Source: Astropecten irregularis | Lineage: Eukaryota > Echinodermata > Asteroidea > Paxillosida > Astropectinidae | Assembly (NCBI GenBank): GCA_963971285.1 | Contig: OZ020246.1 | Coordinates: 11,329,217 to 11,393,216, forward strand | Direction: 5' to 3' | DNA length: 64,000 nt | In this document: in pieces, positions 29,681 to 62,289 of the stretch | Layout of the letters: each line of letters opens with the position of its first letter | Position numbering within the stretch: the first letter of the stretch is position 1 | Notes under the pieces: model-generated | The model's input: only the letters and a program-made list of their open reading frames with translations | What the model was told of the DNA's origin: nothing | Database searches by the model: none | Translations under genes and position numbers: made by a program

Positions 29681-29707
29681 CAAAAACAAACCAAAAGTCA
29701 AGAGAAT

Positions 29708-37451: not shown

Positions 37452-37592
37452 TCAAAGTCGACTATGCGTCGTCACTGTGACGCCCAGGAACATTTTCAGC
37501 TCATTCTCTGATATCATTTCGTCGTTGTTCTTGTCCACCATTGCCATTATGTCCTTGGCGCACCGTGTTAATGTTTCCTCCATGACTGGCCC
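37452..37592 (-). CDS. CALB/SCGN-like: Terminal exon with EF6, present only once
   Basis: A 141-base exon: acceptor CATGTTCAG, then 46 residues to TGA. It reads GPVMEETLTRCAKDIMAMV, the EF6 loop DKNNDEMISENE, then LKMFLGVTVTTHSRL. Position 6 of the loop is Glu instead of the usual Gly, but ligand positions 1, 3, 5 and 12 are kept. In the second copy of the gene the matching place (49417-49557) falls in the N gap, so this exon is represented once. Confidence 0.9.
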   Translation of the reverse strand, partial: GPVMEETLTRCAKDIMAMVDKNNDEMISENELKMFLGVTVTTHSRL

Positions 37593-40500
37593 CTGAACAT
37601 GAACAATCCAATGGTTTTATACACAAGTTATAGACACAGGAAGGAACTCGGGATTCGAATGCACAGATTTTATTAAAATAGCCTTTCTCCAATACCACTG
37701 ATTAGTTCTTCAGTTCTTCTGTTTAGTCACTTGATCTGGTCGAAACCAATCATAGTTGCCAATTTTGTCGTTATTTTATTTCTTATTCCTTAGATCAAAT
37801 CATTCTATACTGCCGCGGTCCTTTTTTTCCCGGCAGAAATTGTATGTGCAAATTTGCAATTGCATGTATTTTCAATAATGCCCTTCAGTATTAGACATTT
37901 CCAATCGGATTTCACATTCTTCAGGAGTCGATTTCACCAAACACATCGTAACTTACTATCAATCGTAGGACTTATGATGTATTGCAGCCTTAATACATAG
38001 GATACGATGGGTTATCCATCGCAACTCAGTTACGATCGATCGGAGGGCTTCATGAAATCGACCTCTGATAAAATTAACACCACTGCTAAAACAACAACGC
38101 ACGTGTATTATTGAGAACTTTAAAGTCAATTACGTAAAAGATTATCCGTGAACTCGTCTGAACAAAGCAAACAAAGCAAAGACATTGATGGTGTCTTACC
38201 GAATCTGCACGAAGAATAACCAAGTCCTTGAGGAATTCCTTGAGTTCGTCACCACAGATGACATTGTTCTTATCCTACATTCGCAAAGATTAGGGGAATA
38301 AGATTTCAATCCGTTATGGAGTAAGTCATAAAAGATGACCAGTGATCGATCGGTTCAAGATAAACTCCTGTGACACTGAACTGGTTGCTTTCAAATTCTA
38401 AGGTGACACGAAATGATACGACTCGTATCATCTTTGACATTTTCCCTTCAGAACTGAATCAACTGAAAGTTCAATTTAACACCGTATAGTATCATTTTCA
38501 ACATTGTAATATTGCCCAACTAGGAGCCTGTTTGTTTAATGCAAAGGATCTCATATTTAAAGATCCACGTCCTATGCAGGGTACTCTAAAATGGGATCAG
38601 GATCAGGATCCGCAGAATCCGTGATCCTTTGCATTAAACAGGCCCTAGAATACTGTGTTTTTCCGACCCGAGATCTCAAGTTTGTAAATGAGTTTTCTAT
38701 AAAGTATTTCTATATTTCAGGGATGTGAGTGCCCACACGGAAACATTTGAAAACACACAGGAAAAGCTGAAATTTAAAAGTTCCTATTATACTTTTGTAC
38801 AGAGCAGGTGTACACAAAAATGAAATTCTGAGTTAAAATCTAAACCAAAAAATTTAAAATCTGAAGTTTGAAATCCCTAATATATTTACCTTGTCGTAGT
38901 GGTCAAAAACCCTCTTGAAATCCTCATTGGACACCTTCACCTTCTTCTGTTTTGGACGAAAATGAACCCGAAATATTCAATTAACCTATAGTTTTTAAGT
39001 CACAATAACCATCTTTTAAAATAATATTTCTATCAGTCGATCCACACAATTTCTTCATAGCCGTAACAACATACCAGTTGATTTATTGTACATAATAATG
39101 TGCCCATTAACATGTCTTGTTATGGCAAAGTGTTCGACTATATAGTGACCTTATACGGGATAGAACAAAATGCGTTTTCAGAGAGGAGCGCATGAGGTAG
39201 GCCTTTAATATCCATAGGCCAGAAGTGCAGTTTGTGTCGGTGAAAATCAAACCGCATGCATTTTAATATCAGAAGCTTGCTGAACATCAGAAGGATATTA
39301 TATAGTGTACATCATTATGCATATGGGTCATAAAATATAGAGTGAAATGCGATACAGACACAGATAGAGTAACATATCTCGTTGTGGAACAGAAAAAAGG
39401 GGGATATGATGTTTCATTATCAAACACTGCAAAATGTTGTTCCAGCGGGTTGACATGAAGTATATAGAGGAGATCATAACTTGTCAATCATAAAGAAGAA
39501 CGTTTTATAAGTTCAAGCTGAAAGTACACCTAACCTGATTTGTCTAGTTGCTGTTCTGAATCGGCAAATCTTTCAGTTAGAAAAGTTGTCTTCGTTACAA
39601 TTTTTAGGCCACGTTTTATTCATTTTTTATGTCAAGAAATTCTGATTCAGCAACTATATAATTGTCACAAATAGGGATTTTTTTTTTTTACTTTTTCAAT
39701 GGGAACTTTATTTCCAAAACAGAAACAAATTACCAGATTCTGTGCTCAATGTTTCTTTATAAGACCTAAATTACTTAAATTTTCAAAATTTCACCTTTTG
39801 TAGGATCGTGGCTTGTTCATACAATGTCCATTTGGGCGCGTGACTATTTAATAATCTCACTTACCACAATATACAGGGCGGTAGACATTATACAGAATGT
39901 GGTTCAATATTGCATCGTGAGGTAGGACTTATCTACGGTGCTCCCGAAGGGACAACCCTCCTTCACTATTTTCCGTTGAGAGAAGTATTTATTTTTATAT
40001 GAGGAAAGCCCGAGGGCAAATGAAGGCCTCCGTAACAAGCCATGCTTCTAACTATTATAACCCCGAATTGGCCTTGAGTGCATAATGCTCATGCATCGGT
40101 ATAGTAGTAAAGGCCTAATGTTAATATAATAACTCGGTGCAGTACTTTGTAAAGCTATGCAGCTTTTAGTGCTCCCCTTTGTGATAAAGAATCTTATGCA
40201 CCCAACAAACCAGTGACGTGAACATTGGGTTAGTTTAAATATTGACAAAGACCACAAGCATCACAGGGGAGGTTCATGCAGATGGAATGATAAGCGAGCA
40301 TTATGATAGGAAGAGAGAGAAAAAAGAAGATAAAATCATGAAGATGTGAAAGTGGTTAAAATGAGATAAAATGGTTAAAGCATCGGCGCATGAAAAACTA
40401 AAAACAAGCCTGTTAAAGATGAGGAAAAATAAGAAAAACACATGAAGTAAAAGCGATACTTGGGGCACAAGATACCCCTATATACAAGCAACTTCGAAAA

Positions 40501-43500
40501 GAAACAATGAAACATTTTTGGTGCGCATCGTTCATGTGTAAAGTGGGCGTTTTCGATTGCTTGATACATTTGTGTATAAATATATAATACAAAGCGCCGT
40601 AATGTCGGCACAATCTATATGCAGGGCGGACATACATGATTGTTATTTATGGCTCATGATTTCAGAAAACTTGGCCCAGAAAGAGAGCATTTCAAGTCAC
40701 TTGATCTGCTCGAAACCGATCATATGTGCCAATTTTGTCGGTTTTTTTTCGTATTCCTTAGTTCCAATCATTCTATACTGCCGCGGTCATTTTTCCCGGC
40801 AATTACATGTATTTTCAATAATGCCCTTCAGCTTTAGACATTTCGAATCGGATGTCACATTGTGGGGCAATATTTTTGGTGCATTTTTTCACTCGTTTTA
40901 TTTGCTTCAAGGGTTTTCTTCCAGCAATCCTCGCCAGCTCTTCTCGATTTTTCTGTTTCCTTTCTTTTTTTGCCAAATTATTGTCACTTCAAGACAGAAA
41001 GGATATATCGTTTACAAGGAGAAAAAAATGAATAAATTAGTACTACAATAACTAGATGGAAATGCACAACACATTTAAGTAAATATGACTGATAGAAATA
41101 ATTGTAGACGCCACTCAAAATCCATTTCATAAAAAAGAAATCAGTTTGAACTGGCAGTAAAAGTGATGTTCCAGTATGCTGCAATATATCATGCGTGCAA
41201 CAAAAACAGTGAACATTATAAAGGAGCCATTGAGGAGGAAATAATTTTTGCGAATAAATTTGCTGTGTTGCATATAAGAGGTGTCTTGTGCTCCTAGCAT
41301 TCCGCTGATTGTCTTGGACCCGTCATGAACTACCTTATGTACTTACTCCTTTCTCTCCCAGCGATCCCTGTCAAGGGTTCCAGTGCAAAGAGACAGTGCA
41401 CCGACCGGGGGCAATCAAAGCCAAATTGAAAACACAAACACAAAAAGGGGGAAATAAAAAACAAAATCCGAGAATTGAGCTTTGTTTTGTGTCAAACACT
41501 CAAATTCGATTCCTGAAGAAAAGGCCGTTATTGTTTCTATGATGCTCGGTATGTGTTCACATGGAGCTTTGATTTTAATAGCTCACCATGCATGTACATG
41601 TATAGGCCTAATCAAAGAACAGGTGGGCCATTTCCACCTGTTTGCATCAGTTCAAGTTACAACTTTTTGAAGTTTTTGGTCGATGATTTAATTTCTTTCA
41701 GTTGCCTTTTTGTTTTTGTTGTACTACTTCATGCATGCATAGTGTTCCTAGACATTGACTCACATGCACGGACATGTTAAACACATTAATAACATACAAA
41801 ATCAAAACATTGTCAGGTTAACGTTTTTTTCCATTCGGCCTTGGTCCATGCAGTATAATTGGTCCGATCTCACTGGTCATAATATATTAACACGTTTTTG
41901 AAAAATATCGCCTTTCTTGTTATTATTTTGGATCATGGTGAATCAGCGTTGCAAAGAAAAACTGTGATGAATGATGCATTGATGAAGCCGTACACATTGG
42001 GATTTCTACATTTTGTTGCTTTGTGCTGCCTACGATAGCGACAAAAATCCGTCACAACTAAAAATAAAAAATAATCAAAAATAAAAAACAGGAACCAACA
42101 TTGATTATATCAACTCTACTTGATGATCTTGCATGACAACCAAAATGATCGGGAATCATGTAACCCATACAGGAAAAATCCCAAACTTTATGAACAAAGT
42201 GTGAAATTTTCTTTTCTATCTTTTTTTCTGCCCATTCGTTGTAATAGACGTTTCCATGTGCATGTGAATTTCAATACACAGTGACCAAATGCAATATCAA
42301 GTCTTGCATGGTGTCTAAAGCCTTTTTTTAAAGTGCCGTAAAACCCTGACAAATAATGATTCAAGCTCTCGGCAAAACCGTGCCATTTCAACCCCATTTT
42401 TATAAAAAAAAAATAACAAATGAGACGAAAATCGTAAAATAGGTAACAAAGAAAAAAAAGTTAAATAGGCTAAGAGCAGACTTGTCATTAATTTAAAAAA
42501 AACATAAAACGCAATGGGAGACTTTGGAGAACCGGTCTTGAGTCAACAGCGCACGCGCAAACCATGCTTTGTTTTGCGCGTGCGTGCGCGTGCGCTGTTG
42601 ACTTGAAGACCGGTTCTCCAAAGTCTCCCATTAGCCAAAAACCAAAAAACTTTTTTTTTTCTGAATGAAATTGTCTGTCTGCATCGTATTTTTTCCATAT
42701 GGGTTACAAAGAAAACTGATTTCTTGGGGTGGAATTGACACACGACGACGTATAGACTTCACCGGGGATGAACAACCTCACGCATCACGAAGGGGGCAGG
42801 GGCCACAAAGACTTACTGTGGGAACGAAGTGCGGACTTGGGTCAGGTATGTTACCTTGTAACATAGACTATTACATGAATATAAAACAAGATATAATACC
42901 AAAGACAGGTTACACGACTTGTGTCTAGTTTTTTTTTTCTCTCTATTTTTTCTTCTTCTTTTTTTTCTTTCTGTGTGTGCTGCCAGTGGTTTTAAACAGA
43001 TCGGCCGATGGAAGAGGGGGATAAAAAGAGATAATCTAATTCATCGGGGAGATCGGAGTTTGTGTGAGGTGTACAGTGACCACTTAGGCTTGTTCACAAG
43101 TCTGCCTTTTTGACAATATCGTTTAAGAAATTTATAGCATTTTTTGTATCAATAAAACCACGTAAAACCTGTGCAGCTGTTAGCATCGGTCAACTGTGGT
43201 GGTGTTTTCTTGTACTGAAATGGCACAGAGTATATCAATTATAAGTTCTGTTTGTTGGGCCAAAATGATTTGCATGATTGTGAACACGCCCGGGGTCCAT
43301 ACAAAACAAGGGGGGTTATACCAAAGAAAAACTAAACTGTTCAAGATCTGAGATGGAAAGTGGAATAATGGGGGGAGACCATGAACTATCCTGGCGGAGA
43401 GAGGTATTGTTTTGACCCACCCACCTCAAGCATTGCTTCCAAAAACGAACTCTGAAATAAGAACACTGACTTAGTTATTATCAGATATGCATTTGAAAGT

Positions 43501-46500
43501 TCTGCAGGCAGGTTGAAAGAATACAACGTTGCAATGTCAAATATTGTTGATTACATCTTCAGAAAACACAAAGTCTATAATTTATCACTATAGCGTGGCA
43601 CGTGTCTGTTTAAGAGTTTCAGAAACGAACATTTTGTTAAATCGTGTTGTACCACTTGATTACGCAATGATCATAGCTGAATACAATATGTCTTATTTGC
43701 TCATAGTTTGTCTTTGGACTTAAAATCACCTTTGTGTGTTTTTTGTGTCGATCTCTACCAAAGGACTTGTGTTTAGGATCCGAGCAACCTCATGTCAGCT
43801 AATATGTAGGCCAATACGATACTAAAATTGTGTCACAATGTAGACTGTTGTAGTTGTTTTTATTGGTGACTGGTCCGATTCCCAAGGAGGATACCACTTG
43901 GAATAATTTACTTCCGATGATCACATGGACTTTCCAAAGAACTATCAGTAAGGGTTCTGGTGCCCCATTTAATAAAGATTGTACCTTCACTTGATATAAG
44001 TCCACGAATGACCTTAAAAGTCAAACAAAATAATGATATGGTGATAATGAAAACCATTTGGTGTTCGTTTATCCCCAGGGAAACGTTAATATTCCCTGCC
44101 TTCTGTTTCCCTGCATATCCACTTAACTTAACTTCAAGCAAGAAATGTTGTATCCTAAATTATGTGTGTATCTTTTTGTTTAAGGCAAAAAAACCAGCTT
44201 TTTTGAGTAGCAATTGAAAGCACATCATTATAAGAAAATGGCCGCCGCAGCTTGTGCAATGTGAGGGAGAGAGTTTCAGTTTGAGTGAAACCTGACCTCA
44301 TCTGGACCCTAGACGTCTTGAATTATATACTCCTTACCTCGAACTGCAAGAAAATGTTTTCCTTCACGGGCACCAATCTGTGAAAAGAAAAATGTATACT
44401 TGTAAATTATCAAGTAAACCATACTCGAGACTTTTTCCACCGGTTCTTTTTAGAACCACGCATCTATGAAAGAGATTATACATGGTGTCTACGCAAACTT
44501 ACGTATTACGTGACTTCCACCATGCAAAGCTTCAAATCCTAGAACGTTTCGTGTATTTCTTAATACTTTGCGGCCAGACTATGACAATTTGAAGTCGTTA
44601 CAGAACAGGTCTGGGAATATTCTTTTGAAAGGTTCAAAACCTGAAAATTATATCACTCACTTGAGCATTTCCTTGAAACTCAGTTTGTTGTCCTTGTCCA
44701 CGTCGAACAATTTGATCTATGAATAGAGAAATAATATAATTAAGTACCAGCATACGGCCACGATGACTTATTCAATTTCTCCTGAAAAAAATTCTGGACC
44801 GAATGCTCAAAACTGAAAACAAATCCCAAAACAAATAGATGAAAACCTAAAAGAAAACAAACAAACCCCCAAAACAAGGTTTTTTAGACCATTGGAGATT
44901 GTATTCATGTTGGCTGATTTTGAAGAGAAAGAGTTCCGCATTAACTTGGCTTTACTTTGAAAATGAAAGGGGCTCTCCCCTGAGATGTAATCCTCCATGC
45001 AGTATGACGCCCGAATGTAAAATGATATGAGATTCCATGTCTGAAAATACGCCTGCATGCAATGGCCCAATTATTCCTAGAGGAAATGGGTCTGCCTGCA
45101 TTCATTCATCATTCATGAAAGATGTAATCATACCCGAAAAAACAAGAAGCTGCAATCAAATACCATGACGTCATTCACTATGTGCTTAGATTAGTGTGCG
45201 TGCGGACGTGTATAGCTGTAGACCCGTACTATAGTAAATCATGGCGTTGTGATCGTGAGAGGGAATTATGAAAGTGGGGCACACAAACATGAAGGGATTT
45301 TGTGATAGAATAAAATTGTGTAACCATGCGAGGCCCTGTCCTGCGTTTCACCTTTCACAATTGTATTATATCATTGGACAAATACAGGTGGAATCTATTG
45401 TTGGCATACTGTCCAGTTTTTGCGTTCTCACACTAAAAATAATAATTTTTTTGTGGTTTGGAATTGATCTTGATAATAACCATCCCGCAGATAACTTTTT
45501 TGCCCAGATCGTCCTCAGAAAAATCATAAAGATGGAAATTAACGGGCCTCGGTTTTATATTGGAAAGTTATCAATCATTTTCTCAGTATAAGTTTGATTA
45601 CCATAGCATCTGCGTACGTCTGGAGTTTCTCATCCGGTAGCTCGACGGTACTCAGGTCCTTCAAAAAGCTCTGTTATTCAAACAAACAAATAAATAACAA
45701 CAAACTACATGTATATGTATCAGTCCTCAGATACCTGGATATACTCGGCATAAACCCACTTCACATCCCTAATATCACGGCGCATACAATTGCAATATAA
45801 CTTAAGTCGGAACGCAACGGCAATATTAAAGGTAATATCATACTTTGGTTTTTGTCAAAGAAATACAAATTCATGGGCAAAGATATCAAGGACGATACAG
45901 TAAAAGTAATCTGTGAAAATTTCAGTCCCATACGGTGCCAACATTTTGCGAAAAGAGTGAAAAACGGCCACAGTATTTCTTAAGTATTTTCTCTTTTATT
46001 TTTGATCTTTTAAAAGATCAATAAGATTTTCGGTCGTTGTTTTATTAATTTCTGGATAAATACACCATTTCAGGCGGAAATATTTTAACGGTTTTTTTAC
46101 CAGCATCATCTTCATACCCTGAAAGTTAAATGTAAATCTGTGAACATTTCTGTTTTGGTCTCTTACCAAAGTATGATACCACCTTTAAATATTCAGTTAT
46201 AGGTTAAATGTTCAACGTATCATTCAACAATTAGGCGTGATGTCTTTCCCCATTTTTTCCTCTCCAAGTTGGCCTGGACGCATGATGCTTATTTTTACTC
46301 TATAGACATGCACCATTGACTTTTTCCTTATGATTTCACAAATCCCATGACCATTATAGTAGAAACCTTAAACATTGCGAACGTTTCGATCGTGCCGATC
46401 TGTTCACCAACTTAAACTTTTGCAAACCTTTTTAACACTCTCTGGAACGAAAGCTCGTATAACTTCAGTAATAATATTCTCATGTTAACTCAAAAATGTT

Positions 46501-46584
46501 AACAAAATTTATCTCCGTGTACACATACCTTAAGTTCGCTCTTATCAATGAACCCGTCCCGATCAGCATCGTATCTTACCAAAT
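37452..46584 (-). CDS. CALB/SCGN-like: Calbindin/secretagogin-family EF-hand protein, copy 1 (EF3-EF6)
   Basis: Calcium-binding sensor/buffer of the six-EF-hand family (calbindin-D28k, calretinin, secretagogin), cytosolic and often neuronal or neuroendocrine. Exons in transcript order: 46529-46584, 45602-45670, 44661-44716, 44338-44377, 38890-38946, 38200-38274, 37452-37592 (stop TGA at 37452-37454). All junctions have GT-AG sites and matching phase except the first, which is one base short of in-frame. Loops: EF3 DADRDGFIDKSE, EF4 DVDKDNKLSFKE, EF5 DKDKNNVICGDE (split between two exons), EF6 DKNNDEMISENE. Between EF4 and EF5, LVPVKENIFLQFE matches the family's conserved linker. EF6 keeps its ligands, as in secretagogin rather than vertebrate calbindin, whose EF6 is degenerate. 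About 164 residues are visible of an expected 260-280; exons for EF1-EF2 were not found. Confidence 0.9.
37726..37918. repeat. Diverged intragenic repeat, pair with 40696-40861
   Basis: GTCACTTGATCTGGTCGAAA to TCGGATTTCACATT returns at 40696-40861 in another intron of the same gene with about 80-85% similarity by eye and one ~20-base length difference (GTATGTGCAAATTTGCAATT). Both copies also recur in the duplicated block (49691-49883 and 52661-52826). Confidence 0.7.
37927..38062. repeat. MITE family E (GTCGATTTCACC...ATGAAATCGAC)
   Basis: About 136 bases with inverted ends and internal CATCGTAACTTACTATCAAT and GATACGATGGGTTATCC. Other copies are at 47834-47966, 49892-50027 (duplicated block) and, inverted, 60693-60843. 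The family is very GATC/TCGAT-rich. Confidence 0.8.
38524..38645. repeat. Palindromic MITE family D, copy 2
   Basis: GAGCCTGTTTGTTTAATGC at the left and GCATTAAACAGGCCC at the right, with GGATC-rich interior; homologous to 32944-33057 in inverse orientation. Lies in an intron of the EF-hand gene. Confidence 0.8.
38947..44337 (-). other. CALB/SCGN-like: 5.4-kb intron of the EF-hand gene
   Basis: Between the exon ending the conserved ENIFLQFE linker and the exon starting KKVKVSNEDF, phase 0. It holds the second intragenic repeat (40696-40861) and a palindromic MITE (42513-42632). Long open frames here (for example 40557-41051) are AT-rich and have no family resemblance. Confidence 0.75.
42513..42632. 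repeat. Palindromic MITE family F with Z-DNA-prone centre, copy 1
   Basis: AATGGGAGACTTTGGAGA at the left and TCTCCAAAGTCTCCCATT at the right; arms of about 50 bases include GTCAACAGCGCACGCGC. The centre is a run of alternating purine-pyrimidine (GCGCGTGCGTGCGCGTGCGC). Copies at 54478-54597 (duplicated block) and 62290-62434 (independent). Confidence 0.85.
45837..46187. repeat. TAAAGG MITE family, full copy 4 (copy 5 at 57803-58153)
   Basis: TAAAGGTAATATCATACTTT at the left and AAAGTATGATACCACCTTTA at the right, within an intron of the EF-hand gene. It recurs in the duplicated block. Confidence 0.85.
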
Positions 46585-47138
46585 CTGCAGAGAAAGAAAT
46601 CAAGGAGAAATACTCAAAATTATGCCATCATGAGGCATATTTTGAGACCAATATACAATGAAATAAAAAAAATTATGAAGAAAGTATGCAGTTCATATTG
46701 TTAAGTTGAGTTGACCATGAATCAATTCGCCTTATTCACTGTGCATTCATCCTACATTCGAAGCAGTGCAATCAAACCGAGGCTTGGATTCAAAGTAGTC
46801 TGGTACCCTATTTCTTTTTAGAATGGGTGTTATCTCTTCCAACGGGTATACAAGGAAGGTGACAAGATGGACGTACCTATAATAAGGTTTATTGAGCTTG
46901 TGCCTGTACTCGCTTCAGTAAGTCAGGCCGATCAGGGGATCGTGCTTCATTTACAAAGGTATCAGCCTTGTTGGTACCACAAAACGACTGTTGTATGTTT
47001 GATAAAACGTTCCACGGCGAGCGTGTCCTTTGATTTAGTTACCTAGTCTGTATGAAATGCAACTTAGACATTTTATGGAAATATAATTTGTAGATGAAAA
47101 GCCATGTCAAAAAATGATGTGTTCCTTCCACGCCTTAC

Positions 47139-49180
47139 GAGTTTCATGATGTGAGCAGGAGCGAAGAAGTGCATTCCAATTACGCTCTCTGGCCGTTTGG
47201 TGGCTGACGCGATCTGGAGACGAATTCAGACACACAGAAGATCACTATCAGAAACGCTATCTTTTATTTCTTGTTTACCCTGGGGTTACCTCTCAGTGAA
47301 ACACTGATTACCAGAGGTGCCCAGCAATTACAAAATGTACAGTGCTGAAATGCGAAGGATCCGGCTACAACGTGATCGAGTTGACAGCGGCGCCTTTGGC
47401 TGCCAGCACAATTCAACCCATATATGATCACAGAGCACAGCCTGAGATTGAAAGTGTTTGATTTTTGTGGAGGGAGGAAAACCGGAGAACCTTGAGCAAA
47501 ACCCTCGTAGAATAGGAGAGAACCAACGCACAACTATACTCACATATGACCCAGACCGGGATCGAACCCGGGCCACATTGGTGAGAGGCGATTGCCTAAC
47601 GCAATTGCCACCTATGCCCCCTAAATAGCTTCTTCTTCAATATCGAGTTGCTACATTACATCAGTCCAGAGAAGCAGCCAGAGCCTTGCCTGAGGCGCTA
47701 AGGTTTCAGAAATAGCTAAGGCCACACACTAAACAGCAGATGGCCTTACTTACGTTCAAGCAAAAATGATGAGGACGAGGTGAGTGACAGTGGAGCAGGT
47801 TTCTTCAAACAAGGCTGACAAACATGACCAGGGGTCAATTTCACCAAACTCATCGTAACTTACTATCAATCGCAGGACTTATGATGCATTGCAGCCCTAC
47901 TCAGGATACGATGGGTTATCCTTCATAAGACGAGTTACAATCGATCATGGGCTTCTTGAAATCGACGCCTGATCTCAATTTAGTGGATGATGGTTGGACT
48001 GGTCTAGCCAGAGCATAGAGATGCATACTAATCAAACTAGAGGGCGGGCTCGGCGAAATTTCTGTGACAACATGGGGATCGATCCGCCATTACTGAAATG
48101 GGCACTGCGCCGGCACTTTACTATCTTTGCTGTGGTACGTACGGTGTAGGCCTTTGTACTGTAGTTTACTCAAGTGCTCCGTCAGCACAGGCATTCCCTG
48201 GTATGCATGCGTATACGTAATTCGTGCCCATAATAGTAATGGCGGCACGGGCCCATGTGATCACAGCGCCACAGTACAGGGGAGTATTGTGCGTCCACCC
48301 TCTAGTTCATTAGTATGTATCTCTATGAGTCAGAGAGACTATCGTACCTGGTCTATGTTCAATCCTGATGTGTTACTAGCCAATATGGCAGACGGTTTGC
48401 AGACGGCGTCCAATTTGCCAAAGATATCCTGCTTGATCTTCATGTTCTCGAAGACTGCTTCGATGACAACATCCACGTCTCTCAAGTCATTGTAATTCAG
48501 CGTAGGCTTTAGCAGAGTCTGCAGCTTCTGAGCTTGAGCCATTGTGGTTCTTCCTCTCTTCACGTTGTACTCTACAAATCTTTTGACTGTGGCCACGCCA
48601 CGTTGCAGGAACTGTACATTAAACAAAAATCATGGTAAAAATAGGTTGCCGAGATTTCCACCGACTGGGCTGACCTAAAATATATTCACTGAAAAGTTAG
48701 GAGGCCCTGACATTTCAATCCAAGCAGAATCTTTACAGGTTAATAAACTGCAGCAAGCAGCACATCAACCAAACTAATGAATTTCAATTATAATGCTTTA
48801 AGTTTAATAGTCGGGCCGGACATCACGGTCCTAGTAGGATCTTTCTCAAAGGCTGAATGACAAGAGGACAAGAAAGTGCAAGTAAATGGATGACAGGAGC
48901 AGAACACAGGCAAAGATTCTAGCATAATCATTGTCAAAGATCAAATGACAAACGAATTCAGAAATTGTTGTTGGTCTCCAAAGTACAATTTCAAGAATTT
49001 CAATCACAATTTGAAGCAACTGACCTGATCAGTCTGTTCAATCATGTAGGTGGGATACCGACTGAGATCAATGCCATGGCAATGCCAGCTCCCATGGGTA
49101 CCCGCCCCAATCACAGCGACCGACTTGATCGGTTGGGCTTGGCGGGTCACATGACTAGCAGATCGACTTGGAATCTCCCA
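47139..49180 (-). CDS. EHHADH: EHHADH-like bifunctional enzyme, three internal exons
   Basis: Peroxisomal L-bifunctional enzyme (enoyl-CoA hydratase plus 3-hydroxyacyl-CoA dehydrogenase), acting in fatty-acid beta-oxidation. Exons in transcript order: 49025-49180, 48348-48611, 47139-47213, each with GT-AG sites and phase-0 joins. Exon 1 gives PIKSVAVIGAG, the start of the Rossmann NAD-binding fold. Exon 2 (88 codons) runs LKPTLNYNDLRDVDVVIEAV, FENMKIKQDIFGKLDAVCKP, SAILASNTSGLNIDQ. Exon 3 gives IASATKRPESVIGMHFFAPA, HIMKL, the family's substrate-binding and catalytic His region. The hydratase domain (upstream) and the C-terminal helical domain (downstream) are absent: the left side is cut two bases into the next intron by the duplicated block, and the right side reaches the N gap. 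The related mitochondrial trifunctional alpha subunit is a less likely identity. Confidence 0.85.
47262..47628 (-). repeat. tRNA-derived SINE
   Basis: On the minus strand the head (about 47628-47545) is tRNA-like: GGTGGCAATTGCGTTAGGC as A-box region and GGTTCGATCCC as a perfect B-box. The body follows with CCGGTTTTCCTCCCTCCAC, CTCAGGCTGTGCTCTGTGAT and CAACTCGATCACGTTGTAGC, ending in an A-rich AAGAAATAAAAG tail. The body matches 24150-24297. It lies in an intron of the EHHADH-like fragment in the same orientation. Confidence 0.75.
47834..47966. repeat. MITE family E, copy in EHHADH intron
   Basis: GTCAATTTCACCAAACTCAT at the left and CTTGAAATCGAC at the right; same interior as 37927-38062 with independent differences. 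Confidence 0.75.
48720..48910 (-). repeat. Interspersed repeat with GATCC stem-loop, copy in EHHADH intron
   Basis: Inverse match to 31185-31300 (TAATAAACTGCAG, AGGATCTTTCTCAAAGGC, AATGACAAGAGGACAAGAA). A second, better-preserved copy of the stem-loop end lies at 49305-49360, upstream of the NAD-binding exon. Confidence 0.6.
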
Positions 49181-49427
49181 CTGTGGACAAATAATAAACA
49201 CAAGAACAAATCAACCCAAATGGAAAGTTTTGATACCTTCTGCAGAATGAAAAAAAAAGTAAGGGAATCGGTTTTGTAGTCTTTCAGTGTTTAAAGTTAG
49301 GCGGGGCCTGACGCGTTTTGATCCTGGCAGGATCTTTCTCAAAGGCTGAATGACAAACTACACGAACATGCAAGTGAAGGAAGCATACATACATGAATAA
49401 GAGGATATGGACAAAGGGAAAGGGTGG

Positions 49428-49627
49428 NNNNNNNNNNNNNNNNNNNNNNNNNNNNNNNNNNNNNNNNNNNNNNNNNNNNNNNNNNNNNNNNNNNNNNNNN
49501 NNNNNNNNNNNNNNNNNNNNNNNNNNNNNNNNNNNNNNNNNNNNNNNNNNNNNNNNNNNNNNNNNNNNNNNNNNNNNNNNNNNNNNNNNNNNNNNNNNNN
49601 NNNNNNNNNNNNNNNNNNNNNNNNNNN
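49428..49627. other. Assembly gap, 200 N
   Basis: Exactly 200 unknown bases between the EHHADH-like contig and the second copy of the EF-hand block; a round number suggests an arbitrary scaffold gap. Open frames that cross it are meaningless. Confidence 0.99.
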
Positions 49628-50164
49628 ACAGATTTTATTAAAATAGCCTTTCTCCAATACCACTGATTAGTTCTTCAGTTCTTCTGTTTAGTCACTTGAT
49701 CTGGTCGAAACCAATCATAGTTGCCAATTTTGTCGTTATTTTATTTCTTATTCCTTAGATCAAATCATTCTATACTGCCGCGGTCCTTTTTTTCCCGGCA
49801 GAAATTGTATGTGCAAATTTGCAATTGCATGTATTTTCAATAATGCCCTTCAGTATTAGACATTTCCAATCGGATTTCACATTCTTCAGGAGTCGATTTC
49901 ACCAAACACATCGTAACTTACTATCAATCGTAGGACTTATGATGTATTGCAGCCTTAATACATAGGATACGATGGGTTATCCATCGCAACTCAGTTACGA
50001 TCGATCGGAGGGCTTCATGAAATCGACCTCTGATAAAATTAACACCACTGCTAAAACAACAACGCACGTGTATTATTGAGAACTTTAAAGTCAATTACGT
50101 AAAAGATTATCCGTGAACTCGTCTGAACAAAGCAAACAAAGCAAAGACATTGATGGTGTCTTAC

Positions 50165-53100
50165 CGAATCTGCACGAAGAATAACCAAGTCCTTGAGGAA
50201 TTCCTTGAGTTCGTCACCACAGATGACATTGTTCTTATCCTACATTCGCAAAGATTAGGGGAATAAGATTTCAATCCGTTATGGAGTAAGTCATAAAAGA
50301 TGACCAGTGATCGATCGGTTCAAGATAAACTCCTGTGACACTGAACTGGTTGCTTTCAAATTCTAAGGTGACACGAAATGATACGACTCGTATCATCTTT
50401 GACATTTTCCCTTCAGAACTGAATCAACTGAAAGTTCAATTTAACACCGTATAGTATCATTTTCAACATTGTAATATTGCCCAACTAGGAGCCTGTTTGT
50501 TTAATGCAAAGGATCTCATATTTAAAGATCCACGTCCTATGCAGGGTACTCTAAAATGGGATCAGGATCAGGATCCGCAGAATCCGTGATCCTTTGCATT
50601 AAACAGGCCCTAGAATACTGTGTTTTTCCGACCCGAGATCTCAAGTTTGTAAATGAGTTTTCTATAAAGTATTTCTATATTTCAGGGATGTGAGTGCCCA
50701 CACGGAAACATTTGAAAACACACAGGAAAAGCTGAAATTTAAAAGTTCCTATTATACTTTTGTACAGAGCAGGTGTACACAAAAATGAAATTCTGAGTTA
50801 AAATCTAAACCAAAAAATTTAAAATCTGAAGTTTGAAATCCCTAATATATTTACCTTGTCGTAGTGGTCAAAAACCCTCTTGAAATCCTCATTGGACACC
50901 TTCACCTTCTTCTGTTTTGGACGAAAATGAACCCGAAATATTCAATTAACCTATAGTTTTTAAGTCACAATAACCATCTTTTAAAATAATATTTCTATCA
51001 GTCGATCCACACAATTTCTTCATAGCCGTAACAACATACCAGTTGATTTATTGTACATAATAATGTGCCCATTAACATGTCTTGTTATGGCAAAGTGTTC
51101 GACTATATAGTGACCTTATACGGGATAGAACAAAATGCGTTTTCAGAGAGGAGCGCATGAGGTAGGCCTTTAATATCCATAGGCCAGAAGTGCAGTTTGT
51201 GTCGGTGAAAATCAAACCGCATGCATTTTAATATCAGAAGCTTGCTGAACATCAGAAGGATATTATATAGTGTACATCATTATGCATATGGGTCATAAAA
51301 TATAGAGTGAAATGCGATACAGACACAGATAGAGTAACATATCTCGTTGTGGAACAGAAAAAAGGGGGATATGATGTTTCATTATCAAACACTGCAAAAT
51401 GTTGTTCCAGCGGGTTGACATGAAGTATATAGAGGAGATCATAACTTGTCAATCATAAAGAAGAACGTTTTATAAGTTCAAGCTGAAAGTACACCTAACC
51501 TGATTTGTCTAGTTGCTGTTCTGAATCGGCAAATCTTTCAGTTAGAAAAGTTGTCTTCGTTACAATTTTTAGGCCACGTTTTATTCATTTTTTATGTCAA
51601 GAAATTCTGATTCAGCAACTATATAATTGTCACAAATAGGGATTTTTTTTTTTTACTTTTTCAATGGGAACTTTATTTCCAAAACAGAAACAAATTACCA
51701 GATTCTGTGCTCAATGTTTCTTTATAAGACCTAAATTACTTAAATTTTCAAAATTTCACCTTTTGTAGGATCGTGGCTTGTTCATACAATGTCCATTTGG
51801 GCGCGTGACTATTTAATAATCTCACTTACCACAATATACAGGGCGGTAGACATTATACAGAATGTGGTTCAATATTGCATCGTGAGGTAGGACTTATCTA
51901 CGGTGCTCCCGAAGGGACAACCCTCCTTCACTATTTTCCGTTGAGAGAAGTATTTATTTTTATATGAGGAAAGCCCGAGGGCAAATGAAGGCCTCCGTAA
52001 CAAGCCATGCTTCTAACTATTATAACCCCGAATTGGCCTTGAGTGCATAATGCTCATGCATCGGTATAGTAGTAAAGGCCTAATGTTAATATAATAACTC
52101 GGTGCAGTACTTTGTAAAGCTATGCAGCTTTTAGTGCTCCCCTTTGTGATAAAGAATCTTATGCACCCAACAAACCAGTGACGTGAACATTGGGTTAGTT
52201 TAAATATTGACAAAGACCACAAGCATCACAGGGGAGGTTCATGCAGATGGAATGATAAGCGAGCATTATGATAGGAAGAGAGAGAAAAAAGAAGATAAAA
52301 TCATGAAGATGTGAAAGTGGTTAAAATGAGATAAAATGGTTAAAGCATCGGCGCATGAAAAACTAAAAACAAGCCTGTTAAAGATGAGGAAAAATAAGAA
52401 AAACACATGAAGTAAAAGCGATACTTGGGGCACAAGATACCCCTATATACAAGCAACTTCGAAAAGAAACAATGAAACATTTTTGGTGCGCATCGTTCAT
52501 GTGTAAAGTGGGCGTTTTCGATTGCTTGATACATTTGTGTATAAATATATAATACAAAGCGCCGTAATGTCGGCACAATCTATATGCAGGGCGGACATAC
52601 ATGATTGTTATTTATGGCTCATGATTTCAGAAAACTTGGCCCAGAAAGAGAGCATTTCAAGTCACTTGATCTGCTCGAAACCGATCATATGTGCCAATTT
52701 TGTCGGTTTTTTTTCGTATTCCTTAGTTCCAATCATTCTATACTGCCGCGGTCATTTTTCCCGGCAATTACATGTATTTTCAATAATGCCCTTCAGCTTT
52801 AGACATTTCGAATCGGATGTCACATTGTGGGGCAATATTTTTGGTGCATTTTTTCACTCGTTTTATTTGCTTCAAGGGTTTTCTTCCAGCAATCCTCGCC
52901 AGCTCTTCTCGATTTTTCTGTTTCCTTTCTTTTTTTGCCAAATTATTGTCACTTCAAGACAGAAAGGATATATCGTTTACAAGGAGAAAAAAATGAATAA
53001 ATTAGTACTACAATAACTAGATGGAAATGCACAACACATTTAAGTAAATATGACTGATAGAAATAATTGTAGACGCCACTCAAAATCCATTTCATAAAAA

Positions 53101-56100
53101 AGAAATCAGTTTGAACTGGCAGTAAAAGTGATGTTCCAGTATGCTGCAATATATCATGCGTGCAACAAAAACAGTGAACATTATAAAGGAGCCATTGAGG
53201 AGGAAATAATTTTTGCGAATAAATTTGCTGTGTTGCATATAAGAGGTGTCTTGTGCTCCTAGCATTCCGCTGATTGTCTTGGACCCGTCATGAACTACCT
53301 TATGTACTTACTCCTTTCTCTCCCAGCGATCCCTGTCAAGGGTTCCAGTGCAAAGAGACAGTGCACCGACCGGGGGCAATCAAAGCCAAATTGAAAACAC
53401 AAACACAAAAAGGGGGAAATAAAAAACAAAATCCGAGAATTGAGCTTTGTTTTGTGTCAAACACTCAAATTCGATTCCTGAAGAAAAGGCCGTTATTGTT
53501 TCTATGATGCTCGGTATGTGTTCACATGGAGCTTTGATTTTAATAGCTCACCATGCATGTACATGTATAGGCCTAATCAAAGAACAGGTGGGCCATTTCC
53601 ACCTGTTTGCATCAGTTCAAGTTACAACTTTTTGAAGTTTTTGGTCGATGATTTAATTTCTTTCAGTTGCCTTTTTGTTTTTGTTGTACTACTTCATGCA
53701 TGCATAGTGTTCCTAGACATTGACTCACATGCACGGACATGTTAAACACATTAATAACATACAAAATCAAAACATTGTCAGGTTAACGTTTTTTTCCATT
53801 CGGCCTTGGTCCATGCAGTATAATTGGTCCGATCTCACTGGTCATAATATATTAACACGTTTTTGAAAAATATCGCCTTTCTTGTTATTATTTTGGATCA
53901 TGGTGAATCAGCGTTGCAAAGAAAAACTGTGATGAATGATGCATTGATGAAGCCGTACACATTGGGATTTCTACATTTTGTTGCTTTGTGCTGCCTACGA
54001 TAGCGACAAAAATCCGTCACAACTAAAAATAAAAAATAATCAAAAATAAAAAACAGGAACCAACATTGATTATATCAACTCTACTTGATGATCTTGCATG
54101 ACAACCAAAATGATCGGGAATCATGTAACCCATACAGGAAAAATCCCAAACTTTATGAACAAAGTGTGAAATTTTCTTTTCTATCTTTTTTTCTGCCCAT
54201 TCGTTGTAATAGACGTTTCCATGTGCATGTGAATTTCAATACACAGTGACCAAATGCAATATCAAGTCTTGCATGGTGTCTAAAGCCTTTTTTTAAAGTG
54301 CCGTAAAACCCTGACAAATAATGATTCAAGCTCTCGGCAAAACCGTGCCATTTCAACCCCATTTTTATAAAAAAAAAATAACAAATGAGACGAAAATCGT
54401 AAAATAGGTAACAAAGAAAAAAAAGTTAAATAGGCTAAGAGCAGACTTGTCATTAATTTAAAAAAAACATAAAACGCAATGGGAGACTTTGGAGAACCGG
54501 TCTTGAGTCAACAGCGCACGCGCAAACCATGCTTTGTTTTGCGCGTGCGTGCGCGTGCGCTGTTGACTTGAAGACCGGTTCTCCAAAGTCTCCCATTAGC
54601 CAAAAACCAAAAAACTTTTTTTTTTCTGAATGAAATTGTCTGTCTGCATCGTATTTTTTCCATATGGGTTACAAAGAAAACTGATTTCTTGGGGTGGAAT
54701 TGACACACGACGACGTATAGACTTCACCGGGGATGAACAACCTCACGCATCACGAAGGGGGCAGGGGCCACAAAGACTTACTGTGGGAACGAAGTGCGGA
54801 CTTGGGTCAGGTATGTTACCTTGTAACATAGACTATTACATGAATATAAAACAAGATATAATACCAAAGACAGGTTACACGACTTGTGTCTAGTTTTTTT
54901 TTTCTCTCTATTTTTTCTTCTTCTTTTTTTTCTTTCTGTGTGTGCTGCCAGTGGTTTTAAACAGATCGGCCGATGGAAGAGGGGGATAAAAAGAGATAAT
55001 CTAATTCATCGGGGAGATCGGAGTTTGTGTGAGGTGTACAGTGACCACTTAGGCTTGTTCACAAGTCTGCCTTTTTGACAATATCGTTTAAGAAATTTAT
55101 AGCATTTTTTGTATCAATAAAACCACGTAAAACCTGTGCAGCTGTTAGCATCGGTCAACTGTGGTGGTGTTTTCTTGTACTGAAATGGCACAGAGTATAT
55201 CAATTATAAGTTCTGTTTGTTGGGCCAAAATGATTTGCATGATTGTGAACACGCCCGGGGTCCATACAAAACAAGGGGGGTTATACCAAAGAAAAACTAA
55301 ACTGTTCAAGATCTGAGATGGAAAGTGGAATAATGGGGGGAGACCATGAACTATCCTGGCGGAGAGAGGTATTGTTTTGACCCACCCACCTCAAGCATTG
55401 CTTCCAAAAACGAACTCTGAAATAAGAACACTGACTTAGTTATTATCAGATATGCATTTGAAAGTTCTGCAGGCAGGTTGAAAGAATACAACGTTGCAAT
55501 GTCAAATATTGTTGATTACATCTTCAGAAAACACAAAGTCTATAATTTATCACTATAGCGTGGCACGTGTCTGTTTAAGAGTTTCAGAAACGAACATTTT
55601 GTTAAATCGTGTTGTACCACTTGATTACGCAATGATCATAGCTGAATACAATATGTCTTATTTGCTCATAGTTTGTCTTTGGACTTAAAATCACCTTTGT
55701 GTGTTTTTTGTGTCGATCTCTACCAAAGGACTTGTGTTTAGGATCCGAGCAACCTCATGTCAGCTAATATGTAGGCCAATACGATACTAAAATTGTGTCA
55801 CAATGTAGACTGTTGTAGTTGTTTTTATTGGTGACTGGTCCGATTCCCAAGGAGGATACCACTTGGAATAATTTACTTCCGATGATCACATGGACTTTCC
55901 AAAGAACTATCAGTAAGGGTTCTGGTGCCCCATTTAATAAAGATTGTACCTTCACTTGATATAAGTCCACGAATGACCTTAAAAGTCAAACAAAATAATG
56001 ATATGGTGATAATGAAAACCATTTGGTGTTCGTTTATCCCCAGGGAAACGTTAATATTCCCTGCCTTCTGTTTCCCTGCATATCCACTTAACTTAACTTC

Positions 56101-58551
56101 AAGCAAGAAATGTTGTATCCTAAATTATGTGTGTATCTTTTTGTTTAAGGCAAAAAAACCAGCTTTTTTGAGTAGCAATTGAAAGCACATCATTATAAGA
56201 AAATGGCCGCCGCAGCTTGTGCAATGTGAGGGAGAGAGTTTCAGTTTGAGTGAAACCTGACCTCATCTGGACCCTAGACGTCTTGAATTATATACTCCTT
56301 ACCTCGAACTGCAAGAAAATGTTTTCCTTCACGGGCACCAATCTGTGAAAAGAAAAATGTATACTTGTAAATTATCAAGTAAACCATACTCGAGACTTTT
56401 TCCACCGGTTCTTTTTAGAACCACGCATCTATGAAAGAGATTATACATGGTGTCTACGCAAACTTACGTATTACGTGACTTCCACCATGCAAAGCTTCAA
56501 ATCCTAGAACGTTTCGTGTATTTCTTAATACTTTGCGGCCAGACTATGACAATTTGAAGTCGTTACAGAACAGGTCTGGGAATATTCTTTTGAAAGGTTC
56601 AAAACCTGAAAATTATATCACTCACTTGAGCATTTCCTTGAAACTCAGTTTGTTGTCCTTGTCCACGTCGAACAATTTGATCTATGAATAGAGAAATAAT
56701 ATAATTAAGTACCAGCATACGGCCACGATGACTTATTCAATTTCTCCTGAAAAAAATTCTGGACCGAATGCTCAAAACTGAAAACAAATCCCAAAACAAA
56801 TAGATGAAAACCTAAAAGAAAACAAACAAACCCCCAAAACAAGGTTTTTTAGACCATTGGAGATTGTATTCATGTTGGCTGATTTTGAAGAGAAAGAGTT
56901 CCGCATTAACTTGGCTTTACTTTGAAAATGAAAGGGGCTCTCCCCTGAGATGTAATCCTCCATGCAGTATGACGCCCGAATGTAAAATGATATGAGATTC
57001 CATGTCTGAAAATACGCCTGCATGCAATGGCCCAATTATTCCTAGAGGAAATGGGTCTGCCTGCATTCATTCATCATTCATGAAAGATGTAATCATACCC
57101 GAAAAAACAAGAAGCTGCAATCAAATACCATGACGTCATTCACTATGTGCTTAGATTAGTGTGCGTGCGGACGTGTATAGCTGTAGACCCGTACTATAGT
57201 AAATCATGGCGTTGTGATCGTGAGAGGGAATTATGAAAGTGGGGCACACAAACATGAAGGGATTTTGTGATAGAATAAAATTGTGTAACCATGCGAGGCC
57301 CTGTCCTGCGTTTCACCTTTCACAATTGTATTATATCATTGGACAAATACAGGTGGAATCTATTGTTGGCATACTGTCCAGTTTTTGCGTTCTCACACTA
57401 AAAATAATAATTTTTTTGTGGTTTGGAATTGATCTTGATAATAACCATCCCGCAGATAACTTTTTTGCCCAGATCGTCCTCAGAAAAATCATAAAGATGG
57501 AAATTAACGGGCCTCGGTTTTATATTGGAAAGTTATCAATCATTTTCTCAGTATAAGTTTGATTACCATAGCATCTGCGTACGTCTGGAGTTTCTCATCC
57601 GGTAGCTCGACGGTACTCAGGTCCTTCAAAAAGCTCTGTTTATTCAAACAAACAAATAAATAACAACAAACTACATGTATATGTATCAGTCCTCAGATAC
57701 CTGGATATACTCGGCATAAACCCACTTCACATCCCTAATATCACGGCGCATACAATTGCAATATAACTTAAGTCGGAACGCAACGGCAATATTAAAGGTA
57801 ATATCATACTTTGGTTTTTGTCAAAGAAATACAAATTCATGGGCAAAGATATCAAGGACGATACAGTAAAAGTAATCTGTGAAAATTTCAGTCCCATACG
57901 GTGCCAACATTTTGCGAAAAGAGTGAAAAACGGCCACAGTATTTCTTAAGTATTTTCTCTTTTATTTTTGATCTTTTAAAAGATCAATAAGATTTTCGGT
58001 CGTTGTTTTATTAATTTCTGGATAAATACACCATTTCAGGCGGAAATATTTTAACGGTTTTTTTACCAGCATCATCTTCATACCCTGAAAGTTAAATGTA
58101 AATCTGTGAACATTTCTGTTTTGGTCTCTTACCAAAGTATGATACCACCTTTAAATATTCAGTTATAGGTTAAATGTTCAACGTATCATTCAACAATTAG
58201 GCGTGATGTCTTTCCCCATTTTTTCCTCTCCAAGTTGGCCTGGACGCATGATGCTTATTTTTACTCTATAGACATGCACCATTGACTTTTTCCTTATGAT
58301 TTCACAAATCCCATGACCATTATAGTAGAAACCTTAAACATTGCGAACGTTTCGATCGTGCCGATCTGTTCACCAACTTAAACTTTTGCAAACCTTTTTA
58401 ACACTCTCTGGAACGAAAGCTCGTATAACTTCAGTAATAATATTCTCATGTTAACTCAAAAATGTTAACAAAATTTATCTCCGTGTACACATACCTTAAG
58501 TTCGCTCTTATCAATGAACCCGTCCCGATCAGCATCGTATCTTAACCAAAT
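50165..58551 (-). CDS. CALB/SCGN-like: Calbindin/secretagogin-family EF-hand protein, copy 2 (EF3-EF5)
   Basis: Exons in transcript order: 58495-58551, 57567-57635, 56626-56681, 56303-56342, 50855-50911, 50165-50239. The first exon is 57 bases here, one more than in copy 1, and reads IWLRYDADRDGFIDKSELK in phase 0. The Trp before the EF3 loop is conserved in calbindin (TWRKYD) and secretagogin (IWRKYD), so this frame is the right one. The following exons give SFLKDLSTVELPDEKLQTYA and on, as in copy 1. The EF6 exon is lost in the N gap. Sequence to the right of 59102 should be the genuine upstream flank, but I did not find EF1-EF2 exons in it. Confidence 0.88.
58495..58551 (-). CDS. CALB/SCGN-like: EF3 exon, intact version
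   Basis: 19 codons between acceptor TTTCTCTGCAG and donor AAG|GTATGTG; phase 0 on both sides. The loop DADRDGFIDKSE has all canonical ligands (1, 3, 5, 12), Gly at 6 and Ile at 8. The matching exon in copy 1 (46529-46584) has TTACC instead of TTAACC on the plus strand and would shift frame. Confidence 0.9.
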
Positions 58552-59102
58552 CTGCAGAGAAAGAAATCAAGGAGAAATACTCAAAATTATGCCATCATGA
58601 GGCATATTTTGAGACCAATATACAATGAAATAAAAAAAATTATGAAGAAAGTATGCAGTTCATATTGTTAAGTTGAGTTGACCATGAATCAATTCGCCTT
58701 ATTCACTGTGCATTCATCCTACATTCGAAGCAGTGCAATCAAACCGAGGCTTGGATTCAAAGTAGTCTGGTACCCTATTTCTTTTTAGAATGGGTGTTAT
58801 CTCTTCCAACGGGTATACAAGGAAGGTGACAAGATGGACGTACCTATAATAAGGTTTATTGAGCTTGTGCCTGTACTCGCTTCAGTAAGTCAGGCCGATC
58901 AGGGATCGTGCTTCATTTACAAAGGTATCAGCCTTGTTGGTACCACAAAACGACTGTTGTATGTTTGATAAAACGTTCCACGGCGAGCGTGTCCTTTGAT
59001 TTAGTTACCTAGTCTGTATGGAAATGCAACTTAGACATTTTATGGAAATATAATTTGTAGATGAAAAGCCATGTCAAAAATGATGTGTTCCTTCCACGCC
59101 TT

Positions 59103-60692
59103 GATGTTGTGTATTAATATAGTTTGTTAAGGCAGTGTGCATCTCAACTGCACAATTTGAACGTTTCCGTTTGACACACTTAAGTTACCCCCGATATGTC
59201 TTCGAGCTCGCAGACACTTGAACGGTTTTCCCTTTTTTTCTGTGGCTTTTAGACATGCATTAGTTCAGTGTACTGGTACTAATGAAAATAGTAGTGCTTG
59301 GTCAGGCATAAGCAAAACGGACTGTTAAACGTTTCAATGCCACCAATGCATTCGTAGAAACGTTTTAATTATGTCATTTGAAACGAGGAACCAATCCAGG
59401 AGAAACGATAATACCCATCCAGACTGCAAAGTATCAGATATGGTTTGAACTATAAGAGCAAATATTTGAATTCTTCGACGTAAGAATTGGGATTACGGTG
59501 CAAAATATAGTTTGGGGTTTTGTCCTGATGATTCGGGTATATATACAGGGGCCAATTTCTTGGAGCTGCTAAGCACAAAATAAAATGCTTAGCACTAAAC
59601 GTCTTGCTCAATAAAACAAACCACCATTAAAAAATTCCATTTATCAGCGAACAACAGTCAAAGAACAATCACAAGTGATACACAACACATGGACATTTGT
59701 TAATCCTGTTTTCATTAAGACATAAAGTTCATGGTTTCTAGGAATTGTTTGTGCTAAGCCGGGCCGTGAAATTGTGCCCTCAACTGAGTTGGTAAAGATT
59801 AAAGAGTTAAAATTGTGTTTCAGAATTAGGATGAGTGCTCGTTTGAGGGCAGATATAACAAAGTCGGCATAGGAATAAAAAAAACAGCCGTGTCTTCGCC
59901 TCACATAACCAACGGTGGGGATAAAACATGAGTACTATGTGCACTGCTTTCTACTATGATTGAAACTCTTGCCCTATAGCGGGAATGTAACACTAAATCC
60001 AGGTACAATTCGTTGCAGGCACGTTCGCATGTAAGCGCTCTTGCTATACAAGGGGCATCATCACCTTATACTCTCAGGTGACAATCAAAATAACACTGGC
60101 TTCATCACCCATGGGGCATATTACACCTGAACTCAATATCAGTGCTTAGGCCTGGGTCCCTAGTATCGAAAATAACATTCTGTGAATTGTAATTTTGAAG
60201 AAAACAAATCTTCAAAAGATGAAAAAAACAGCAACAAATATTCAGAAGATATATTGTAGCAGAGAAAAAATCCATATGATTCATATGTCGAAAATCATAT
60301 CTTATGAAATGTTATATTTTGTGAAAATATAATTACATATAAAAAGGAAAAAATACATGTGATTCAAAATTATAAGGGTGGCAAAATATGATTGATGCAC
60401 TTTCCGTGTTTTCTGCAGTTATTTAGGTCAGCGAAGACTATCTTTTTACCAGGCCTAAGAGCATTCCATTGCATTAAAATTGCATGAAAAACTGCGACCT
60501 TGTAAAGACAAATGGATACCCAATAATGTGGCCAACTGGGCATGATATTGCAAATGCCTCACCTTCCGTACTCAATCGGTAATATGAATTACTGGTACGT
60601 TTCTTGTGTTTAATGCTTTGGTATGCATCATGTCAGTGTATGTAAAGGATGAAAACTGTTGTCGATGGGCTTTTTTTTTATACATGCCTGGG
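59103..60692. other. No gene seen; decayed family B MITE at 59548-59780
   Basis: Unique AT-rich sequence after the duplication boundary. The family B relic keeps GGGGCCAATTTCTTGGAGCTGC and a weak inverse end. No EF-hand exon was recognised. Confidence 0.45.
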
Positions 60693-60843
60693 GTCAATTT
60701 CACGAAGCCCTACGATCGATCGTAACTCGAGTTACGAAGGATAACCCATCGTATTCGTATAGGAGGCCTATCCTAAGTAGGACTGCAATGTATCATAAGT
60801 CCTACGATTGATAATAAGTTACGATGAATTCGGTGAAATCGAT
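60693..60843. repeat. MITE family E, inverted copy
   Basis: GTCAATTTCACGAAGCCC at the left and GGTGAAATCGAT at the right; the interior GGATAACCCATCGTAT and TCATAAGTCCTACGATTGAT are inverse to 37927-38062. Confidence 0.75.
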
Positions 60844-61005
60844 TCCTGTCATTCTTTAGTTGTGATTTTCCTTCTTATTCTTTACATTATCAGGGTTCCT
60901 CTCTGAGCCGAATTTGGGCTTTTTGTTGTTATAAAGCAGCATGCGAGTGGAGTCTGTGATACCGAGGCGATTATACAAGCCTTTGATTCGCCGTCAAAGT
61001 GACAG

Positions 61006-61019
61006 GTTGCCATGGCAAC
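61006..61019. promoter_or_regulatory. Perfect palindromic X-box (RFX site)
   Basis: GTTGCCATGGCAAC is a perfect 14-base inverted repeat matching the RFX X-box consensus. The next 100 bases are GC-richer than the surroundings (GCAGCGCCTCGGGAGCGTG), as at a promoter. No transcription start can be assigned. Confidence 0.4.
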
Positions 61020-61334
61020 TCATCTTCTTCAACCTGCCGATCGAAAAAAAAAAAGCAGGCCCGTGTAAATGCAGCGCCTCGGGAGCGTGTTGATTCCACG
61101 GGACACGGAATGAACGCGCTGATTGATACCATAGAGTAATTCCTTACTCTATGATTGTACCAAACACCCTCGGTATTTCTTTTCTTTTTTTTTTGGTGGT
61201 CGTTCCGTGTTGTCGCGATGGCCAGTGTTGGAGAGAATTGACGTCAGTACTCACCCACCACTTTACATCGAGATTCATTGCTATACTGTATATCCATGAC
61301 CATGCCATGCCAGGAAAAAAAACAGTAAAGCTTA

Positions 61335-61780
61335 TACAGGGTGTCCAGTGTCCACACAAAAAACGCAACACTTGTGTCGAGAACTATTATATATGAACAT
61401 TAAACTGTTTACCACTTCAAGATTCAGATATAAGATACAGCTATGTCTTGGCTATCACCATGTAGAATTTGAGCCAAATTTGACTAAATTTGAGTGAAAA
61501 GACTGAATTACCCAACCTCAAAACCCGATTTTCATCTTTCTTTCGTACACATTATGTGTGTATTGACCACTATGCGTGTTATCCTTGCAGATTTGTTTTT
61601 AAGGAGTGCGCTTTCAATCGGTCATATTTTCGCCAATTTCAGGCCCAATATGCTTACATTCTACGTGGTGATAGCCAAGACATGACTGTATCACATATCT
61701 GAATCTTGAAGTGATAAACAGTTTAATTCTAACATATAGGTCACGACAAAGTGTTGCGTTTTTTTCTGGAACACCCTGTA
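61335..61780. repeat. DNA-transposon-like element with TACAGGGTGT ends
   Basis: TACAGGGTGTCC at the left and GGAACACCCTGTA at the right. The termini are followed by long subterminal inverted repeats: AACTGTTTACCACTTCAAGA with TCTTGAAGTGATAAACAGTT, and CTTGGCTATCACCATGTAGA with TCTACGTGGTGATAGCCAAG. No transposase; about 446 bases. Confidence 0.75.
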
Positions 61781-62121
61781 TAGGAGAACCAGGCGTCAGC
61801 TGTACAATACCTTTTACTTTTGAACAATTTTCGTGAGGAGGATTTCACACAAAAAGCTTTTACGCTCTCCATATCTCATATCGCATTAACAAGTTAAATT
61901 TGTCGGCCCCTCCAAGATTATTATTGAGTATTGACCAGTCCTTTGTCTATCAGATCTGAACAGAATCAGATAAATATGTTTTTCTTGCATCACTTGTGCA
62001 TTTTTAAATAAAAACACATTTGAACAGCATCGTTTTAGGTTTGTGGATCGGTTTTAATAAGGAGACACCATGTATAAGAATCATTCGTACTTTCGCATTT
62101 CTATTTCGTTCGCACTTCTCG

Positions 62122-62171: not shown

Positions 62172-62289
62172 TTGAAATCGTTTTAGCTTTTTGTCACATT
62201 TTGTACAACTCGTGACTAGAAGTAAAAGATTGAAAAGAAGTGACAAACTGTTGTCCATTGTTTTAATTGGGTTTGAATCTTAATTAATT

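Follow-up and report, generated by a model that had tools for sequence, protein, structure and literature searches.

In the 64,000-nucleotide stretch of the sea star Astropecten irregularis that is referred to here as the window (C9:11329217-11393216), a block of about 9.5 kb with part of an EF-hand gene is written twice, as copies A and B (Table 1). This duplication is almost certainly an assembly artefact, in which the chimeric end of one contig (contig A, left of a scaffolding gap) stands next to an unmerged overlap with the following contig (contig B, right of the gap). An earlier note made from the letters of the window had proposed a plain assembly artefact, and the mechanism can be narrowed further: the best explanation is that an interchromosomal chimera ends contig A and that the 9.47 kb which it shares with contig B were not merged across the gap. 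The published assembly comprises 475.80 Mb in 22 chromosomes and 186 scaffolds with 786 gaps, and its chromosome 3 measures 28.81 Mb (PMC11480709); C9 is 28,814,611 bp long.

The two copies were compared by BLASTN and by global alignment. Over 9,477 columns they show no substitution and five one-base insertions or deletions (indels), at window positions 45673, 46577, 46935, 47053 and 47109, that is, all within the distal 1.46 kb of the block; with no substitution, there are no haplotype-specific variants between the copies. The first base of copy B stands directly after the 200-N gap, on the same scaffold as copy A. The earlier note had given these same block boundaries, the same five single-base indels without substitutions and the same gap at the start of the second copy, and all of these were reproduced to the base. 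It had also argued from the indel-only difference to an artefact; the observation holds, but the argument does not suffice by itself, since substitutions would likewise be absent from a very young duplication. In the searches of the assembly (475,729,200 bases in 168 contigs, with matches scored for the best 40 candidates per query), a 1,001-bp query from the block found two full-length matches of 100% identity, both on C9, and the remaining 43 matches listed were short and at most 89% identical (best 40 of 4,599 candidates).

Between copy A and the gap lies a tail of contig A that the earlier note had not noticed. Its only other full-length match in the assembly is on the plus strand of C19 (best 40 of 8,041 candidates), with no substitution and 11 one-base indels over 2,294 columns. 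C19 is another large, chromosome-scale contig, which would be chromosome 12 judging by contig order, and it contains no N at the join point in the 1.5 kb examined on each side. At the join itself (47136/47137) no microhomology was found, and the parent bases differ on both sides. Sequence 59103-61400, to the right of copy B, has a single full-length match, at its own place on C9 (best 40 of 6,760 candidates), and contig B continues past 59102 with no gap in the following 100 kb. Since this flank, among the matches listed, has a full-length one only at its own place on C9 and the tail matches C19, the foreign sequence belongs to contig A rather than to contig B. Contig A (C9:11323237-11378643) is 55,407 bp long and is bounded by two N gaps, and its shortness may reflect thin coverage.

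Block and tail together hold 16 indels, all of which fall within the last 3.76 kb before the gap, with none in the preceding 8,010 bp. The Kolmogorov–Smirnov test gives p = 3e-8 for this crowding when all 16 are taken over 11,765 bp, and p = 1.8e-4 for the five block indels alone; the block end has 3.4 indels per kb and the tail has 4.8, with split points picked after the data had been seen. Among them, 15 are run-length changes of one base (10 with runs of at least 2 in both sequences, five between 1 and 2), and the remaining one is the insertion of one base. Should all 16 be errors of contig A, the quality of its final 3,755 bp is Q23.7, and the quality value (QV) of 56.8 reported for the assembly (PMC11480709) predicts 0.02 errors in 11,765 bp. 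The error pattern would suit a single uncorrected HiFi read. Moreover, the PacBio HiFi input given in the same report (2.30 million reads, 22.66 Gb) corresponds to a computed mean read of 9.85 kb, to which the overlap of 9.47 kb is close.

Where coding sequence tells the copies apart, the poorer one is copy A: one of the five block indels breaks an exon, namely an EF-hand exon, and it does so in copy A. The tail is damaged in a similar way. On the minus strand of the C19 region, the Pfam family 3HCDH_N was matched in three of the four stretches tested, at profile positions 1-33, 33-122 and 121-173, and the middle stretch (33-122) has an enoyl-CoA hydratase/isomerase as its best PDB-sequence match, with peroxisomal bifunctional enzymes also listed. 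From these matches, the tail is predicted to hold minus-strand exons of a 3-hydroxyacyl-CoA dehydrogenase gene (NAD-binding domain). Its nucleotide-binding exon stretch matches 3HCDH_N with E = 6.1e-7 on C19, and the tail version, with its four indels, matches no Pfam family at E <= 0.1; of the two tail stretches tested, the other one does match 3HCDH_N. The join 47136/47137 lies inside the stretch that matches profile positions 121-173, where the reading frame of C19 is unbroken; that is to say, the dehydrogenase gene is cut mid-exon by the join in contig A. The block boundary at 47136 was also considered as a splice site, with a GT donor read on the minus strand of contig A, and was rejected because the C19 frame continues through it. 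In this way, the artefact suspected in the earlier note is supported by the C19 tail, the indel crowding, the frame-breaking indels of contig A and a size near that of a read.

The process probably ran as follows. True C9 sequence, which copy A is taken to be up to the join, would have been joined at 47136/47137 to 2.29 kb of C19 in a chimeric long read, and the tail is probably one uncorrected HiFi read. Contig B starts within the same locus, its position 49628 being equivalent to 37663, and would bear the true continuation past 59102. Because the foreign dangling tail would prevent a proper end-to-end overlap, the contig ends would not have been merged, and the assembler would have failed at the overlap step. 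During scaffolding, contigs A and B, presumably placed by Hi-C, would then have been put next to each other, separated by 200 N, so that the 9.47 kb common to both would have been written twice. Under such a process, read depth would be expected to be very low in the final ~3.8 kb of contig A and normal throughout contig B; the half depth per copy that the earlier note predicted would instead fit a haplotig. A literature search with the phrase 'chimeric HiFi reads' found no occurrence in the papers listed (12 of 85), and the word 'chimeric' is absent from the main text of PMC12667832 and PMC12991106; therefore, the case for a read chimera is built on the sequence itself and what is deduced from it.

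An artefact type of this kind is known, namely the 'homotype' false duplication. It has been reported that homotype duplications often lie at contig boundaries, are about as long as a read, and become tandem copies with a gap after scaffolding (Rhie et al. 2021, PMC8081667). The present case resembles them in that the same locus occurs twice over about one read length where a contig ends, the copies are separated by a gap and unequal in consensus quality, copy A being the poorer, and they show no haplotype-specific variants. It is unlike the cases described in the consulted part of that report, which concern unselected graph branches and sequencing-error pile-ups, in having a 2.29-kb interchromosomal chimeric tail and a false gene fragment. 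Gaps between copies and very low depth have also been described as marks of false duplications (Ko et al. 2022, PMC9516828), some of which contain false PacBio chimeras as long as a raw read (7-17 kbp). The gap between copies on one scaffold and the false partial gene copies are likewise shared with that report; however, the chimeras in the relevant part of it are called palindromic, and the chimera here joins two chromosomes.

Against the artefact it may be held that the duplication is real and very recent, with a C19 piece copied into its junction by template switching and the gap in or beside the insert. The order of block, C19 piece, gap and block is the topology expected of a templated tandem duplication. 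C19-like sequence and an N gap stand between copies A and B, and on this point a real duplication that contained an insert and a gap left unclosed would give the same picture; a very young one could also lack substitutions. However, the indels rise toward the gap rather than being spread over the block, the tail exon stretch has four indels and no substitution, exons are broken, the foreign piece ends exactly at the contig end, and the duplicated length is near the mean read length, so that a real duplication is highly improbable. The same low probability applies to the fullest form of this reading, in which template switching in this animal filled the junction of a 9.5-kb tandem duplication with at least 2.3 kb copied from elsewhere in the chromosome set, too recently for any substitution to have accumulated.

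A haplotypic (heterotype) duplication, in which the end of contig A and the start of contig B are two alleles, would be in keeping with the N gap between the copies, and such errors did occur in this assembly, 87 haplotypic duplications having been corrected during curation (PMC11480709). However, two other sea stars are reported to have a heterozygosity of 0.96% and 1.20% (PMC11090083 and PMC12961294), and at such values 91-114 substitutions would be expected in 9.47 kb, where none is found; the C19 tail would also be left unaccounted for. The haplotig was rejected on this absence of allelic divergence, measured against the two other sea stars, and has only a slender chance of being correct. 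As for a wrong join in contig B (59102/59103), with a real link between C9 and C19, the block alignment alone cannot tell which flank is right. However, 59103-61400 has no other full-length place among the matches listed, contig B is gapless through the next 100 kb, the tail matches C19 over its full length, and the exon damage is on the side of contig A. Contig B was thus discarded as the chimeric partner by the own-place match of its flank and its gapless continuation, and the chance that it is at fault is minute.

Several points weigh against the chimeric contig end with an unmerged overlap. At a second 200-N gap (C9:11323037-11323236), 6 kb left of the window, a search of 2 kb to the left and 2 kb to the right found no overlap or chimera, and these flanks have no other full-length match among the matches listed in the assembly; the pattern is thus present at one of the two gaps within the 264 kb examined. 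The coding evidence places the fault for one of the five block indels and four of the 11 tail indels, leaving the other four and seven unplaced, and one exon stretch of the tail (48342-48629) shows no damage. Since the best 40 candidates were scored per query, the tail might have a further copy elsewhere in the assembly. In addition, the reported pipeline consists of hifiasm --primary, purge_dups, YaHS and manual curation (PMC11480709), and the proposed mechanism does not account for the survival of the overlap through hifiasm, purge_dups and manual curation.

The EF-hand stretches of the block lie in one of its three minus-strand frames (Pfam EF-hand_1, 6.8e-7). The 19 residues of the copy B exon align one to one with residues 113-131 of secretagogin, whose chain 8bav_C tops the 180 distinct sequences matched; its whole-sequence E = 3.3e-10 is summed over several EF-hands, and the stretch 113-131 alone has an i-Evalue of 0.57. 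The weak EF-hand stretch to the left of copy A, which has no counterpart with contig B, may be another exon of this gene. The three minus frames of 28000-37662 gave nothing in Pfam beyond this one weak EF-hand, and no Pfam family was matched at E <= 0.1 in the three plus-strand frames of the block or in the six frames of the right flank 59103-64000. Among PDB sequences, phmmer found no match at E <= 1 for one read-through frame of the block and none at E <= 10 for 38086-38271. As assembled, copy B is without the left EF-hand stretch, and in copy A one exon is broken and the sequence at the right end is foreign. When the block is counted once, the exon matches suggest one secretagogin/calbindin-like minus-strand gene.

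The artefact could distort gene counts taken from this scaffold in three ways: this one secretagogin/calbindin-like EF-hand gene would be seen as two partial genes in tandem, chromosome 3 would gain a false dehydrogenase fragment, and the apparent homology between C9 and C19 could be mistaken for an interchromosomal duplication. If the artefact is confirmed, the redundant stretch is 37663-49627, with 11,965 bases including the gap. A read-free check could also be made at gaps flanked by near-identity: the bases from the copy to the gap are searched against the rest of the assembly, and indel-only differences crowding toward the contig end are looked for.

Table 1. Features of the window, in window coordinates.
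Feature	Position	Strand	Description
Copy A of the block	37663..47136	+	9,474 bp, distal part of contig A, by alignment to copy B
Copy B of the block	49628..59102	+	9,475 bp, first bases of contig B, by alignment to copy A
Probable chimeric tail of contig A	47137..49427	+	2,291 bp, matches C19:16744848-16747133
Scaffolding gap between contigs A and B	49428..49627	.	200 N; the window has no other N run
Error-rich end of contig A	45673..49303	.	16 one-base indels, 0 substitutions against copy B and C19
EF-hand exon, copy A	46529..46584	-	56 bp, indel at 46577, frame broken
EF-hand exon, copy B	58495..58551	-	57 bp between AG and GT, in frame
Weak EF-hand stretch left of the block	37485..37556	-	Pfam EF-hand_1, E=0.01, 15.8 bits against a curated cut-off of 25.4
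Nucleotide-binding exon stretch of the tail	49007..49210	-	4 of the tail's 11 one-base indels, 0 substitutions
Second tail exon stretch, same gene	48342..48629	-	no indels, 3HCDH_N 4.6e-24 in both tail and C19
Dispersed repeats	13739-14072, 29104-29470, 30379-30748, 31846-32200, 45825-46191, 57791-58157

Several other elements were observed in the window. The dispersed repeats form a family of ~330-370 bp in both orientations, with ~85-91% identity in the listed pairs, and they are perhaps the miniature inverted-repeat transposable elements (MITEs) mentioned in the earlier note; the join 47136/47137 lies outside them. Tandem arrays are located at 2408-3300 (16 bp x 56), 12257-12957 (21 bp x 33) and 20751-22363 (79 bp x 20). 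Transfer RNA matches on the plus strand lie at 4640-4712, 11629-11702 and 30986-31060, of which two score closer to the threshold, and a match to the stem-loop of the histone 3′ untranslated region lies on the minus strand at 17332-17376, with 34.5 bits against a threshold of 34.

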